64,000 nucleotides of DNA from Pseudomonas putida (GTDB lineage Bacteria > Pseudomonadota > Gammaproteobacteria > Pseudomonadales > Pseudomonadaceae). The notes beneath the pieces were generated by a model. The model was not told the DNA's origin and ran no database searches. It saw only the letters and a program-made list of their open reading frames with translations. Location of the stretch: contig CP163498.1 in the NCBI GenBank assembly GCA_041071465.1, positions 4,792,001 to 4,856,000 on the forward strand. The letters are read 5' to 3'. Positions 6,218 to 13,160 of the stretch are shown here, one piece after another (positions within the stretch are counted from its first letter, which is position 1; every line of letters starts with the position of its first letter). The position numbers and the translations under genes were made by a program.

Positions 6218-6321
6218 GGGACGTCCTTGACCGTGGGCAGAGTCGCTACTGTAACGCAGTAGAACCAAGAGTGGTCGACCAGCCCGCCGCAATGGTTGAC
6301 CACCCGCCAGCCACTGCGTAG

Positions 6322-6525
6322 CCTTGCCAGTTCGAGGTTCTTCGGCCAGGCCGAAGCTAAGATGGGAACGCGGTACACGCCGCGGCTGCCCCCGCAACTG
6401 TAAGCACCGACAACGGATCGACACTGCCACTGCGCCAGCGCGCGGGAAGGCGTCATCCCGCCAGCCCGCTGTTCAACCGAACGGGGGCCTGGAACGGTGC
6501 GAGCCAGGAGACCTGCCTCGTCACG
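6322..6525 (+). promoter_or_regulatory. Cobalamin (adenosylcobalamin) riboswitch
   Basis: The 419-bp gap before cobW carries the hallmarks of the B12 riboswitch in order: GGTTCTTCGG near the 5' end, AAGATGGGAACGCGGT, GCCGCGGCTGCCCCCGCAACTGT (in two pieces, about 6370-6403), GGGAAGGCG, and the B12 box AGCCAGGAGACCTGCC at 6502-6517. About 110 nt remain between the B12 box and the cobW ATG. B12 binding should reduce expression of the downstream cobW-cobN-chlI/D operon. Boundaries are approximate. Confidence 0.93.
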
Positions 6526-6636
6526 TTTTCGACTTTCAACCGGGCGGGGTGATCCGGTGGCGAACAAGCTCGGCCAACCTCTGGCCCGTGGCTGTCGTCC
6601 TGCATGCCCGCGCCACACTGCCAAGGGCAATGCGAC

Positions 6637-7704
6637 ATGAAAACACTGGCCAAGCTCCCCGTCACCATCGTCACCGGCTTCCTCGGCTCGGGCAAGACCA
6701 CCTTGCTGCGCCACATGCTCGACAACGCCCAAGGCCGCCGCATCGCGGTTATCGTCAACGAATTCGGCGAGCTGGGCATCGACGGCGAAATCCTCAAACA
6801 GTGCAGCATCGGTTGCACCGAGGAAGAAGCCAGCGGCCGCGTCTACGAACTGGCCAATGGTTGCCTGTGCTGCACCGTGCAGGAAGAATTCTTTCCGGTG
6901 ATGCGCGAGCTGGTGGCACGCCGTGGCGACCTCGACCACATCCTGATCGAAACCAGCGGCCTGGCCCTGCCCAAGCCTTTGGTACAAGCGTTCCAGTGGC
7001 CGGAAATCCGCAACGCCTGCACCGTCGATGCGGTCATCACCGTGGTCGACAGCCCGGCCGTGGCCGCTGGCACCTTCGCCGCCTACCCGGACCAGGTCGA
7101 TGCCCAGCGCAAACTCGACCCTAACCTGGACCATGAATCGCCACTGCACGAGCTGTTCGCCGACCAGCTGGCCAGCGCCGACCTGGTGGTACTGAACAAG
7201 GCCGACCTGATCGACGCCGAAGGCCTGGCCAAGGTGCGCGCCGAAGTGGCTGAAGAACTGCCGCCGGCCGTCAAGGTGATCGAGGCCAGCAGCGGCAAGC
7301 TGCCACTGGAAGTGCTGTTGGGCGTGGGTGCCGAGTCCGAGGCGCACATCGATGGCCGCCGCACCCACCACGACACGCACCACGACGGCGACGACCATGA
7401 CGATCATGACCACGACGCCTTCGATTCCATCTCCATCGACCTGCCCGAGGCCGACGAAAGCCTGCTGCTCGACGCACTGACGCAACTGGTGGTGGAGTTC
7501 GGCATCCTGCGTGCCAAGGGCTTCGCCGCCATCCCGGGCAAGCCGATGCGCCTGCTGGTGCAAGGCGTGGGTACCCGCTTCGACAAGCACTTCGATCGCG
7601 CCTGGCGCAACGACGAGCCGCGCATCACCCGCCTGGTGCTGATTGGTCAGGACCTTGACGCTGTTCAACTGGAAGCGCGCCTGCGCCAGGCCCTGGGCGC
7701 CTGA
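6637..7704 (+). CDS. cobW: CobW-type GTPase, cobalt metallochaperone
   Basis: 355 aa G3E-family GTPase. Walker A is GFLGSGKT (residues 14-21), and the metal-binding CxCC motif is GCLCC (76-79). A histidine/aspartate-rich loop (about residues 240-262) and a CobW C-terminal domain follow. It is thought to deliver Co2+ to the cobaltochelatase of aerobic B12 synthesis. I chose the ATG at 6637 so that the beta strand before the P-loop begins at the normal distance. It is the first gene behind the B12 riboswitch and ends 3 nt before cobN. Confidence 0.95.
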   Translation: MKTLAKLPVTIVTGFLGSGKTTLLRHMLDNAQGRRIAVIVNEFGELGIDGEILKQCSIGCTEEEASGRVYELANGCLCCTVQEEFFPVMRELVARRGDLDHILIETSGLALPKPLVQAFQWPEIRNACTVDAVITVVDSPAVAAGTFAAYPDQVDAQRKLDPNLDHESPLHELFADQLASADLVVLNKADLIDAEGLAKVRAEVAEELPPAVKVIEASSGKLPLEVLLGVGAESEAHIDGRRTHHDTHHDGDDHDDHDHDAFDSISIDLPEADESLLLDALTQLVVEFGILRAKGFAAIPGKPMRLLVQGVGTRFDKHFDRAWRNDEPRITRLVLIGQDLDAVQLEARLRQALGA

Positions 7705-7707
7705 CCC

Positions 7708-10700
7708 ATGCACCTGCTGCGGACCCAGCCCGGCGGCTTCGTGCCGGATGACAGCATTGCCGACCTCGGCCAGACACCCGCCGAGCTGGTGATTCTCTGC
7801 AGCGGCGATTCGCACCTGGCATTGCTCGCCGATACCGCCGAGCAATTGCCTGAAGACTTCCCCAGCCTGCGCCTGGCCAACCCGATGCAGGTGCAGAACC
7901 ATGCCTCGGTCGACTTGTACGTCGACCAGGTGCTGCGCCACGCCAAGGTCATTCTGGTGTCGCTGCACGGTGGCGTTGGCTACTGGCGCTACGGCGTCGA
8001 GCAACTGGTCGAATTGGCCGCCCGTGGCGTGCAACTGATTCTGGTGCCGGGCGATGATCGCCCGGACCCGGAACTGACCAGCTTGGGTAACGTTTGTGGC
8101 GAACAGGCCGAACGCCTCTGGCACTACCTGCGCCAGGGCGGCAAGGCCAATGCCATCAACCTGTTCAATTGCCTGGCCAGCCAGTGGCTGGGCCGTGACT
8201 ACGCCTGGGACGAGCCACAGCCTTTGCCACGCACCGCCGTGTATCACCCGGCCAAGGGGAGCGTTGCGCTAGAAGACTGGTACCCGCACTGGCACCCGGA
8301 TTACCCGGTGACGCCGCTGTTGTTCTACCGCTCGCACCTGCAGGCGGCCAACACCGCCTTCATCGACGTGTTCTGCCAGCGCCTGCAAGCAGCCGGGCTG
8401 AACCCGTTGCCGATCGCCGTGGCCAGCCTCAAGGAAAGCGCCTGCCTGGAGCAGGTCGAAGCCTGGCTGGACGAGGTCGGCGCTGAAGTGCTGGTCAATA
8501 CCACCGGCTTTGCCCTGTCCAGCCCAGAGCGCCCCAACCTGCGGCCGTTGCGCCGTGACATCCCGGTGTTGCAGGCCATTTGCGCGCAAGACAACCAGCC
8601 CGGCTGGGAAGCCAGCGAGCAGGGCCTGGGCGCGCGTGACCTGGCCATGCACATCGCCTTGCCGGAGCTGGACGGGCGCATCATCACCCGTCCGGTCAGT
8701 TTCAAGGACATGGCCTGGCGCAGCGAGCGCAGCCAGTCCGACGTGGTGTGCTACCGCGCGCACCCCGAGCGCATGGACTTCGTCGCCGAGCTGGCCCGCC
8801 GCTGGGTTGAGCTGGCGCGCCTGCCTAATGCCCAAAAGCGTATTGCCCTGGTGCTGGCCAATTACCCGACCCGTGATGGCCGCATTGGTAACGGCGTCGG
8901 CCTGGACACCCCGGCAGCGGCGCTGAACATCCTCAAGGCGCTACAGGCCGAAGGCTATCCGCTGGCCGATTTGCCGAGCAGCGGCACGCAGTTGATTCAC
9001 CAACTGCTCGGTGGCGTGACCAACGACCTTGACCACCTGGACCAACGCCCCTGCGCCCAGAGCCTGAGCCTGGCCGACTACCAGGCTGCATTCGAGCGCC
9101 TGCCCGACGCCAACCGCCAGGCCGTGCTGGAACGCTGGGGGCCGCCCGAGCAAGACCCGATGTACCGCAGCGGCCGGCTGATGGTCGCCGGCTTGCGCTT
9201 TGGCCTGACTTTCGTCGGTATCCAGCCGGCGCGGGGGTATCAGGTGGACCCGAGCGCGGTGTACCACGACCCCGACCTGGTGCCGCCGCACGGCTACCTG
9301 GCGTTTCACTTCTGGCTGCGTCACGCCTTTGCCGCCGACGCGGTGATCCATGTCGGCAAGCACGGCAACCTTGAGTGGCTGCCCGGCAAGGGCGTGGGGT
9401 TGTCGGCACAGTGCTGGCCGGATGCGCTGCTCGGCCCGCTGCCGAACATCTACCCGTTCATCGTCAACGACCCGGGCGAGGGTGCTCAGGCCAAGCGCCG
9501 CACCCAGGCGGTGATCATCGATCACCTGATGCCGCCGCTGACCCGTGCCGAAACCTATGGGCCGCTGCGCCACCTGGAACAGTTGGCTGATGAGTTCTAC
9601 GAAGCGCAGCTGCTCGACCCACGGCGTGCTCGCGAGTTGCAGCGCGATATTCTCGAACTGGTAAAAGCCAACCACATCGACCGCGAGTTGCAACTGGAAG
9701 GGCAATTGGACGATGCCGCCGTATGGCTGCCACGCCTGGACACCTACCTGTGTGACCTCAAGGAATCGCAGATTCGCGATGGGCTGCACGTGTTCGGGCA
9801 GTCGCCTGAAGGGCGCCTGCGCCTGGATACATTGCTGGCGCTGTTGCGGGTTGAGCGTGGCGACGGTCGCGGTGGCAATGCCAGCCTCCTGCGGGCGCTG
9901 GCCAAAGCACTGGTGCCGGGCTTCGACCCGCTCGACTGTGACCTTGGGCAGCCGTGGCAGGGTACACGCCCTGAACAGCTGCAAGCCATCGGCAATGACC
10001 CTTGGCGCACGTGTGGCGATACCCGCGAGCGCCTCGAACTGTTGGCACACCAGGTGATCGGGCAGGCGCTGGAAGGCACTGCAGCGTTACCCGCCCTAAG
10101 TGAATGGCAGCCGGTGCACGACGTACTTCAGGCCCTGCGTGACGCGGTGGCACCCAGCCTGGACGCCTGCGGCACTGCCGAAATGAATGGCCTGCTGGCG
10201 GCATTGGCGGGGCGCTTCGTGCCCGCCGGCCCCAGCGGCGCACCCAGCCGCGGGCGCCTCGACGTGCTGCCCACCGGCCGCAACTTCTATACCGTGGACG
10301 TGCGCAACCTGCCCACCACCACGGCCTGGCGCCTGGGTTTCGCCTCGGCCAGCCTGATCCTCGAACGCCACCTGCAGGACCACGGCGATCACCTGCGCCA
10401 GCTCGGCCTGTCGGTATGGGGTACGGCGACCATGCGCACTGGCGGCGACGACATTGCTCAGGCCATGGCGCTGATGGGCGTGCGGCCGGTGTGGGCCACT
10501 GGCAGCCAGCGCGTGGACGATTTCGAAATCCTGCCGCTGAGCTTGCTCGACCGCCCGCGTGTAGACGTGACCTTGCGCGTTTCCGGCTTCTTCCGCGATG
10601 CGTTCGGTAACCTGATCCGTCTGTTCGATGCCGCCGTGCAGGCCGTGGCCGCGCTGGACGAGCCCGACGACCTCAACCCCCTGGCTGCCCGTGTACGCAG

Positions 10701-11468
10701 CGAGCGGGCAGTGCTGCAGGCGCAAGGCGTGGACGCCGATCAAGCTGCTCGCCAGGCCGGTTGGCGGGTGTTCGGTGCCAAACCCGGCGCTTACGGTGCC
10801 GGGGTGCAGAACGCCATTGATGGGCGGCTGTGGCACAGCCGTGACGACCTGGCTGAGGTCTACCTCAACCATGGCGGCTATGCCTACGGTGGCAGCGACG
10901 ATGGCACCCGGCCCGCGCCCAGTTCGCCCAGCGTCTGGCCAAGGTGCAGGCGGTGCTGCAAAACCAGGACAACCACGAGCATGACCTGCTCGACTCCAAT
11001 GATTACTACCAGTTCCAGGGCGGTATGCTGGCAGCGTCGGAAACGCTGTCCGGGGCGGCGGTGGCCAGCTACCACGGCGACCACAGCCAGGCCGATCGAC
11101 CGCGTATCCGTACCCTCAAGGAGGAGCTGAACCGGGTAATCCGTGCCCGTGCGCTCAACCCGAAGTGGATCGACGGGGTCAAGCGTCACGGCTACAAGGG
11201 CGCCTTCGAGATGGCGGCGACAGTCGATAACGTGTTCGCCTTCGACGCCACCACGCACCTGATCGACGACCATCATTATCAGGGGCTGGCCGATGCCTAC
11301 GTGCTCGACCCGGCCACCCGCGATTTCATGCGCGAGCACAACCCCGAGGCCTTGCGCGACCTCACCGAGCGCCTGCTGGAGGCCCAGCAGCGCGGTTTGT
11401 GGCAGGCGCCGGGCAATTACCGCGAAGCCCTCGAAGAACAACTGCTCGACGGCGAGGAACAGGCTTGA
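7708..11468 (+). CDS. cobN: Cobaltochelatase large subunit CobN, frameshifted in this sequence
   Basis: About 1253 aa in total. CobN inserts Co2+ into hydrogenobyrinic acid a,c-diamide together with two AAA+/VWA subunits. Typical segments are present: HGGVGYWRYG, NYPTRDGRIGNGVGLDTPAA, HVGKHGNLEWLPGKG and GGDDIAQAMALMGVRP. The frame changes after SDDGT: adding one C to the CCC at 10907-10909 restores TPARAQFAQRLAKVQ and then runs cleanly to the stop at 11468. As written, the first frame continues out of register to 11130. The loss of one C in a C-run looks like a sequencing error. The gene follows cobW by 3 nt and is followed 1 nt later by chlI. Confidence 0.93.
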
Positions 11469-11469
11469 A

Positions 11470-12492
11470 ATGAGTGAACCCGTACAATTTCCGCTGGCGG
11501 CGGTGGTCGGTGCCGACGACCTGAAGCTGGCGCTATGCCTGACCGCCATCGACCCGAAGATCGGCGGCGTGCTGATCGAAGGGCCGCGTGGCATGGCCAA
11601 GAGCACCCTGGCCCGTGGCCTGGCTGACCTGCTTGGCGAAGGCCCGTTCGTGACCTTGCCATTGGGCGCCAGTGAAGAGCGGCTGGTCGGCACCCTCGAC
11701 CTGGATGCCGCGCTGGGGCAGGGCAAGGCGCAGTTTTCCCCAGGGGTGCTGGCCCAAGCCGACGGTGGCGTGCTGTATGTCGATGAGGTCAACCTGCTGC
11801 CGGACACGTTGGTTGACCTGTTGCTCGATGTGGCTGCCAGCGGCACCAACCGCATCGAGCGCGACGGCATCTCGCACCGGCACAATGCCCGCTTCGTGCT
11901 GATCGGCACCATGAACCCGGAAGAGGGCGAGCTGCGCCCGCAACTGCTCGACCGTTTTGGCCTGAACGTGGCGCTGGAAGGCTTGCCCGAGCCCGAGGCC
12001 CGGCAGCAGATCATTCGCCGGCGCCTGGCGTTCGACAGTGACCCCAAGGCATTCTGTGACCAATGGGCAACGGCCCAGGCGCAACTGCGTGAGCGCTGCC
12101 AGGCGGCGCGCCAGGCCTTGGCCCAGATTGCCCTGGATGATCAGGCGCTGGCCTGGATTACCGAGCGCTGCTACGCCGCTGGCGTCGACGGCCTGCGCGC
12201 CGACCTGGTCTGGCTGCGTGCGGCGCGCGCCCATTGTGCCTGGCGCGGTGCTGCGGCTATTGAAGAGGTGGATGTCGAAGCGGTGGCCGAGTTCGCCTTG
12301 CGTCATCGCCGCCGTGTCATGCCCCAGGCCAAAACGCCGTCGGCGCCGCAGCAGCCTGACCAGCAGCCCGGCCAACCGGGTGGCGGCAACCCTGGTGAAC
12401 AGGGTGCGCAGGGCGACTGGGGGGCATTGCCGGCGCAGCCGGTGGCCAGCGGCGCACGCCGCGAGGTACCGAACTGGGCAAAAAAGCCCTGA
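11470..12492 (+). CDS. chlI: Cobalto-/magnesium-chelatase AAA+ subunit (ChlI-like; zero-frame product)
   Basis: 340 aa. The AAA+ core has Walker A GPRGMAKST (about residues 37-45), Walker B VLYVDEVNLL and the arginine-finger helix region LLDRFGLNV, as in ChlI/BchI, the small ATPase subunit that powers metal insertion by CobN. The C-terminus is a Gln/Gly/Pro-rich linker (about residues 285-325) ending EVPNWAKKP. The stop at 12490-12492 comes right after an A_AAA_AAG heptamer. A ribosome that slips back one base there would continue for 224 more codons into a VWA domain, so this frame can be read as the short product of a chlI/chlD recoding gene. Confidence 0.9.
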   Translation: MSEPVQFPLAAVVGADDLKLALCLTAIDPKIGGVLIEGPRGMAKSTLARGLADLLGEGPFVTLPLGASEERLVGTLDLDAALGQGKAQFSPGVLAQADGGVLYVDEVNLLPDTLVDLLLDVAASGTNRIERDGISHRHNARFVLIGTMNPEEGELRPQLLDRFGLNVALEGLPEPEARQQIIRRRLAFDSDPKAFCDQWATAQAQLRERCQAARQALAQIALDDQALAWITERCYAAGVDGLRADLVWLRAARAHCAWRGAAAIEEVDVEAVAEFALRHRRRVMPQAKTPSAPQQPDQQPGQPGGGNPGEQGAQGDWGALPAQPVASGARREVPNWAKKP

Positions 12493-13160
12493 GCATCCCC
12501 CAGCTACCTGCCAAAGGGGCGGATGCAAGGCCTGGTGCAGGCAAGCAGGGCGAGGCCAGCCGTGGCCGCGGTCGCAATGCGGCGGCCGGCCGGGTGGCCT
12601 GGCTACCGACATTGCTCAAAGGGCGGCCACGGCTGCGCCAGGACCTGTGTTGGCAACAGCGCCAGGCTCGGCCCGCAGAACTGTGGCTAGTCATCGTCGA
12701 CGCGTCGGCCTCGACCCGTCGCCATCAGGCGCTGGCGCAGACCAAAGGGTTGCTGGCAGCGCTGTTCGATCAGGCTTACCGCCAGCGCGCCCGGTTGGCG
12801 TTGCTGACCGCCAGCGGGCGTACACCGCAGTGGCAGCGCCACGGCCTGAAGGCCTCGTCGGCTTTGCAACCCTGGCTGCAGGCGTTGGGTGCGGGTGGCG
12901 GCACGCCGCTGATTTGTGCATTGGAGCAGGCCCGACACTGGCTACAGGCACGACAGCGCGCCTATCCAGATGAAGCCGTGCGCTGCCTGGTGTTTACCGA
13001 CGGTCGTCTGCAGCGCTGGGACACTGTTCAACCCATGCCCTGTGCAACGTTGCTGGTGGATATGGAATTGGCGCCGGTGCGTGTTGGCCGCGCGCAGCAC
13101 CTGGCAGAACAGTTGCAGGCCGATTATCAGCACTTGCAACACTTCAAGGTCGTGGATTGA
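11470..13160 (+). CDS. chlD: ChlI-ChlD fusion by -1 frameshift; VWA-domain portion 12486-13160
   Basis: In the -1 frame, codons from 12486 are open without a stop to 13160. They encode a basic Gly/Arg linker (RGRGRNAAAGR) and then a von Willebrand A domain with the MIDAS motif DASAS and GGTPL. Read through from the ChlI frame this gives a ~563-aa AAA+-linker-VWA protein, the architecture of ChlD/BchD medium subunits. The frames meet at 12480-12486. The only independent start inside the VWA frame that I find is a GTG at 12594 with a poor ribosome site, and it would cut off the linker. Alternatives are a separate VWA gene from that GTG, or a missing A in the A6 run. Confidence 0.75.
12463..12526 (+). 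promoter_or_regulatory. Candidate programmed -1 ribosomal frameshift signal
   Basis: There are three parts in canonical order and spacing. An SD-like GAGGT lies at 12463-12467. A slippery heptamer A_AAA_AAG lies at 12480-12486 in the zero frame (GCA AAA AAG CCC TGA). A stem-loop starts 6 nt later, pairing GCATCC-CCC (12493-12501) with GGG-GGATGC (12517-12519, 12521-12526) around a 15-nt loop with one bulged C. The zero-frame stop lies between the heptamer and the stem. The same heptamer drives frameshifting in E. coli dnaX. Confidence 0.8.

Follow-up and report, generated by a model that had tools for sequence, protein, structure and literature searches.

The chlI reading frame and the VWA frame overlapping its end, found in the stretch of Pseudomonas putida DNA analysed here (the window, meaning that whole 64-kb stretch), very probably form one recoded gene, in which programmed −1 frameshifting at an A_AAA_AAG heptamer would yield both the small and the medium subunit of a cobaltochelatase. 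The sequence-only reading of the locus had stated that recoding of chlD beside cobN was already described, and rightly so: the frameshift is in print for Pseudomonas (PMC3711429, PMC5009743, PMC9227772). The window is a known case, then, and what our analysis adds to it is base-level conservation over 161 evaluable loci, giving comparative support for the heptamer and the downstream stem, together with the limits of the Shine–Dalgarno (SD)-like part and a caution that this part is not general. A second arrangement, in the unbroken chlD genes of Marinomonas, would, if we read it correctly, be a novel form of this known type.

The recoded gene and its operon

All features of the window discussed here lie on the + strand. 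A cobalamin riboswitch (6318..6534; Rfam RF00174, 100.1 bits against a gathering threshold of 31.5) stands upstream of cobW (6604..7704; TIGR02475, 529.1 bits, above the cut-off), cobN for the large cobaltochelatase subunit (7708..11468) and the chlI/D gene, in agreement with the earlier assignment of the gene to a B12-riboswitch operon. The chlI frame (11470..12492), with its start taken as the ATG at 11470, encodes by standard reading a 340-aa small subunit that matches positions 88–338 of the 641-position TIGR02442 profile, that is, its N-terminal part (412.8 bits), as well as BchI-ChlI (334 bits), AAA_5 and AAA_lid_2. Its last codons, at 12475–12492, are TGG GCA AAA AAG CCC TGA, with exactly six As; the A_AAA_AAG heptamer thus occupies 12480..12486, near the end of chlI as the sequence-only reading had it, and is followed by one codon and then by the TGA that ends the small subunit (12490..12492). 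The −1 frame (12480..13160), said earlier to be open through a linker into a VWA domain, is indeed open for 226 codons from 12480 to a TGA at 13158–13160 and encodes a Gly/Arg-rich linker and a VWA domain (VWA_2, PF13519; TIGR02442 'putative cobaltochelatase', profile positions 460–640, 63.5 bits), which would be the C-terminal part of the medium subunit. The TIGR02442 and BchI-ChlI scores of the 0-frame protein are both below the whole-protein cut-offs, and neither piece of the window gene reaches the 779.45 bits of TIGR02442; the plainly fused homologue P0001 also falls below this cut-off (451.9). The stem-loop begins six nucleotides past the heptamer (12493..12526), where it had been placed, with 12493–12501 paired to 12517–12519 and 12521–12526 as six pairs, a one-base bulge and three pairs, and the SD-like GAGGT, a possible upstream stimulator, is at 12463..12467.

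Under the proposed mechanism, ribosomes reading the heptamer normally would stop at the TGA at 12490 and release a 340-aa AAA+ small subunit resembling ChlI, and a fraction of ribosomes would slip by −1 at the pair of lysine codons. The stem-loop would promote this slip, and the GAGG in front of the heptamer may contribute to it in this clade. The slipped ribosomes would read on through the linker and the VWA domain and make a medium subunit that resembles ChlD, is about 563 aa long and has its N-terminal 339 residues in common with the small one; both products are proposed to act with CobN as the cobaltochelatase. We infer the slipping in this organism, its rate and the entry of both products into the enzyme. 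Searches of the organism's own genome found neither a second ChlI-like gene (the next best match having an E of 1.4e-7) nor, at E ≤ 0.001, a match to CobS.

The large-subunit gene of the same operon needs a separate comment. In this assembly, cobN is split into two ORFs, 7708–11130 (TIGR02257, 1428 bits) and 10944–11468 (PF02514), by a short homopolymer run that differs in length by one base, a difference that among 30 aligned loci is seen in this assembly only and is absent from a genome of the same species (L009). The split is either an assembly error or a mutation of the strain, and in the second case the strain may lack an active cobaltochelatase.

The arrangement has close counterparts. 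Like the window, E. coli dnaX (tau/gamma) combines A_AAA_AAG with a downstream stem, an upstream SD-like element and two products, but its −1 product is short, whereas that of the window is long. Recoding of chlD to give small and medium chelatase subunits beside cobN was reportedly the subject of a study by Antonov in 2020 (MBE). The genes termed fs-chlD agree with the window in their AAA+ frame, A-rich shift site and −1 C-terminal part, in having cobN as a partner and in the lack of a separate small-subunit gene, and we see nothing essential in which they differ. According to Kuznetsov et al. 2022, P. aeruginosa is at a stage at which fs-chlD supplies both of these cobalt chelatase subunits (PMC9227772). 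Antonov et al. 2013 report −1 shifts in a cluster of 23 magnesium chelatase genes, Pseudomonas included, and frameshifting in E. coli of 63, 40 and 10% for cassettes with 11, 9 and 7 As (PMC3711429), the A runs tested all being longer than that of the six-A heptamer of the window. The magnesium chelatase entry in the review by Atkins et al. 2016 names Pseudomonas, reports A_AAA_AAR to be under purifying selection, prints the stem-loop of P. protegens and raises the idea of a triplex from a purine/pyrimidine strand bias (PMC5009743).

Conservation across the Pseudomonadaceae

Of the 298 Pseudomonas genomes searched, 280 match chlI strongly, with E at or below 5.9e-86. From these we took 160 loci, consisting of the best-ranked ones and a set of weaker ones and hence not a random draw, and added one from a further Pseudomonas genome and three from other genera of the family; of the resulting 164 loci, three that reach a contig end (L055, L161 and L162) were left out, giving 161 evaluable loci. 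The heptamer A_AAA_AAG is kept in 159 of them and, among these, lies in the chlI frame in 158, the remaining locus (L157) having the heptamer with a disturbed frame upstream. Neither of the two loci that lack the heptamer is fused: L099 has five As, and L167, from a genome that is 86% complete, has AGAAAAG. The sequence-only reading had named a plain fusion through seven As as evidence against itself, and we found six As here and no fused gene among the 161 loci. Downstream of the heptamer, the −1 frame runs for 214–281 codons and contains DxSxS in 158/159 loci, closing after 69 codons in L026, and the AAG is separated from the stop of the small subunit by one codon in 156/159 loci, by none in two and by seven in one.

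The pattern of variation around the site points to selection on bases. The codon that holds the first A of the heptamer is CCA in 93 loci, GCA in 55, ACA in 5, TCA in 3, CTA in 2 and GAA in 1, and it has changed 15 times on the tree of 157 loci; with six codons in use and an A at the third position in 159/159, it is the base that is kept and not the residue. The stop that ends the small subunit is similarly mixed (TGA 82, TAG 71, TAA 6; 12 changes on the tree). The two lysine codons themselves are AAA in 156/156 and AAG in 156/156 of the aligned set. A codon-bias ranking of 209 conserved chlI columns, which puts AAA third and AAG outside the top ten, is no more than supportive and would not by itself single out the heptamer. 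AAAAAAG occurs seven times in the window, three times more commonly than the 2.2 expected from shuffles, so that the heptamer by itself is no evidence.

Folded alone, the window stem shows no notable stability beyond what its base composition predicts (z −0.16; 83 of 200 shuffles equal it), and the support for the stem is comparative. Six or more consecutive outer pairs can be formed in 154/159 loci, against 9.7% of mononucleotide shuffles, and eight or more in 131/159, against 1.5%. The first two pairs are invariant across the 159 loci. Pair 3 is A-U in 154, C-G in 4 and G-C in 1; pair 4 is U-A in 151, C-G in 4, U-G in 3 and A-U in 1; and pair 5 is C-G in 104, U-A in 33, U-G in 20 and something else in 2, with all 33 loci that have an A on the 3' side having a U on the 5' side. 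Pairs 3, 4 and 5 are thus kept despite changes on both sides. Where the review states, in its chelatase entry, that the stem sequence is not strongly conserved (PMC5009743), we see invariance of the outermost two pairs and, at pairs 3–4, variation in few loci with pairing kept. The 3'-side A of pair 5 arose three times on the tree, and a tree-based independent-pairs test of that pair was not significant, having too few events (two pairs, supported branches). In L149 and L154, the arms are largely different and yet pair. Fewer than six consecutive pairs were found in five loci (L031, L164, L165, L166 and L205); among these, L164 can pair at eight of the nine positions but has another fold of minimum energy, and the consecutive-pair rule reveals no clear stem in L165 and L166. 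These comparisons support the presence of a downstream RNA structure, the stimulatory role of which is predicted.

The sequence-only reading had seen three stimulatory parts in the window. The heptamer and the stem hold up; the SD-like GAGGT exists in the window but does not extend to a general signal. A GAGG within 20 nt upstream of the heptamer is found in 52/159 loci, at the same spacing in 50 of the 52, and is absent in 107, with six changes on the tree; in the loci that lack it, the site is, by eye, often GAAGT or unrelated. Limited as it is to those 52 loci, the SD-like element does not belong to a signal of three parts common to all; GAGG may stimulate frameshifting in the part of the genus around P. 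putida.

In principle, chlI and the VWA frame could be translated as separate genes, the latter from a start of its own or by coupling, and the −1 frame does have a GTG at 12594, with GTG at the aligned column in 48/158 loci. However, only two of those 48 have an SD-like tetramer, and a wider search for ATG, GTG or TTG with an SD-like tetramer in the first 60 −1 codons gave hits in 13/158 loci and no conserved start, which agrees with the earlier remark that the VWA frame has no good start of its own; nor do the relatives replace the heptamer with an independent VWA start, as 159/161 keep it. The linker upstream of the GTG moreover stays open in the −1 frame in 158/159 loci, and separate genes would give no reason for the heptamer and the stem to be kept. 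We find this explanation hardly credible.

It is also very unlikely that RNA polymerase rather than the ribosome slips on the A run and provides the second reading. Slippage of this kind is known from the nine As of Thermus dnaX (PMC5009743), and some split relatives have 9–10 As (L168, L170, L174, L178 and L186). Here, however, and in 159/161 loci, the run is A6G, in a single phase in 158 and with a stem six nucleotides on; the 2013 study lists polymerase slippage where a run exceeds seven As (PMC3711429), and such slippage would presumably not need the phase of the heptamer. A sequencing error or a decaying gene at the heptamer might be suspected, as the one-base difference in cobN demonstrates that indel errors or mutations occur in this very assembly, but with the identical site in 159/161 evaluable loci from other assemblies the chance of this is practically negligible. 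Programmed ribosomal frameshifting is the reading we retain for the window.

Some pseudomonads depart from the common pattern in other ways. In the other 18 of the 298 genomes (G014, G041, G042 and others), the search gave weak AAA+ matches only, all with E values above 1e-10; completeness is below 80% in three of these genomes, and this cobalamin step has perhaps been lost in some of them. In one Pseudomonas genome (G176, locus L111), the cobN frame continues into chlI without a stop, making an open frame of 1582 aa, which is either a cobN–chlI fusion or an overlap. By eye, inverted arms able to pair are still present downstream of the site in L099 and L167.

Unbroken chlD genes of Marinomonas

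An unbroken chlD is read as one protein, and genomes with cobN and a fused chlD consequently seem to be without a small subunit. Marinomonas (our genus g28, the single genus of the family f26) has a chlD match in 45/48 genomes; 44 loci were analysed, the 45th match being partial and left out, and chlD is fused in all 44. The linker contains G_GGA_AAG, the shift site of phage lambda gpG/gpGT, in 38/44 loci, and a heptamer of the form XXXAAA[AG] in 41/44, against an expectation of 5.6 (3.3 + 2.3) when proteins and codon usage are kept unchanged. G_GGA_AAG is described as highly shift-prone in E. coli (PMC5009743).

Clade 1, with 31 loci, has the linker motif E-V-x-P-G-K, encoded with GAG in 30/30, CCG in 30/30, GGA in 30/31 and AAG in 31/31, though in these Marinomonas genes GGA accounts for 10% of the Gly codons, CCG for 30% of those for Pro and AAG for 31% of those for Lys. 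Among triplets of conserved columns, codon bias is strongest at P-G-K (6.5 bits, the next non-overlapping one having 3.0), and a tree that leaves out the linker gives this triplet one synonymous change, the lowest number among 186 three-codon windows with a median of 25; the next-lowest, with seven, is at the aligned protein start. The whole heptamer is found in 29/31 loci, the exceptions being L228 (G_GGT_AAG) and L234 (A_GGA_AAG), and a GAGG lies seven bases upstream of it in 29/31, being absent in L228 and L230. Clade 2 (L239–L247) has G_GGA_AAG in 9/9 loci, and in seven of them it is located about 50 codons before the clade 1 position. In these seven aligned loci, the heptamer codons are invariant and the G-K codons at the clade 1 position vary; the adjoining S-P-S codons are likewise invariant in this small set of sequences. 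Another XXXAAAA heptamer is present in three of the four deeper loci and none in the fourth, that of Marinomonas sp. MED121, and Marinomonas rhodophyticola (L299) has GGGAAAG with no GAGG. The codon constraint in Marinomonas is solid.

On these grounds, we think it probable, and the simplest account, that the wiring of Marinomonas is the mirror image of that in Pseudomonas, with standard reading giving the medium subunit and a −1 frameshift the small one. A −1 shift at the heptamer reaches a stop within 13 codons, a closeness that we do not count as evidence. The −1 product, longer in lambda gpG/gpGT, would be shorter in Marinomonas chlD, and the gene would have the polarity of E. coli dnaX, where the short product is likewise that of the −1 frame. 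The review mentions reversed dnaX genes and uses dnaX as an example of how one base can reverse the roles of the products (PMC5009743). Six Marinomonas genomes were found to contain CobN and one ChlI-like gene each; none of the six has CobS above the cut-off, the weak matches in G467 and G487 scoring 95 bits against a cut-off of 558.6.

The constrained codons might alternatively serve some other nucleotide-level function, which we consider unlikely but worth keeping in mind, or act through pausing at the domain border, which appears quite improbable. A search of the 31 loci of clade 1 for a consensus structure after the site found none (alifold −4.0 kcal/mol when the site is included, −0.3 for the sequence after it). 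Internal initiation at the Marinomonas GAGG was rejected, as the sequences inspected by eye have no ATG, GTG or TTG 5–10 bases downstream. If mirror-image frameshifting is the true explanation, at least one genus with fused chlD may make its small subunit by frameshift, and an event of this type would be invisible to searches for split ORFs. Among the titles and abstracts of the literature matches listed, a set that does not cover Antonov 2020, none concerned Marinomonas or chlD of mirrored polarity.

Split and fused chlD outside the family

Matches at E ≤ 1e-30 were present in 46/194 genomes of an order-level sample and in 60/398 of a phylum-level sample, and 40 loci were examined. Nineteen of these are split, 15 of them outside Pseudomonadaceae, and 21 are unbroken and fused. 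In the split loci, the −1 frame is open to DxSxS in 19/19 and the +1 frame in 0/19, and the runs consist of 6, 7, 9 or 10 As. CobN was found in 41/43 tested genomes, the two without it being 86–87% complete, and CobS above its cut-off in none of 44; in the order sample, each matched genome has one match at E ≤ 1e-30, the top first-look candidates having been scored. Four genomes (G720, G662, G461 and G352) have a near CobS match of 458–530 bits and may on this account possess a CobS-type small subunit.

The idea that all fused chlD genes carry a general signal of mirrored polarity was rejected, the counts of XXXAAA[AG] in the linker being near expectation outside Marinomonas: 0/31 observed versus 0.3 expected in Halomonadaceae, 4/5 versus 2.6 in family f28, 6/21 versus 3.3 in other Pseudomonadales and 4/29 versus 3.1 in other phyla. 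The chlD gene is unbroken in all 31 loci of Halomonadaceae (L268–L297 and L254); four genomes of that family (G369, G471, G840 and G333) contain CobN, and searches of these four turned up neither a second ChlI gene nor a CobS gene. With no heptamer in the linker and no small-subunit gene found, the free small subunit may be dispensable in these bacteria or made in some other way; the need of CobN for a free small subunit, and the solution adopted in lineages like Halomonadaceae, become questions that can be tested.

Genus g92 of family f28 (L260–L263 and L265), the genomes of which are fragmented (60–360 contigs; L309 is a metagenome assembly), has a run of nine As where the ChlI part ends in 5/5 loci, three of them fused and two split. 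Polarity here seems to change while the run stays, as if only the two-product output were under selection, and the nine As may also act by polymerase slippage.
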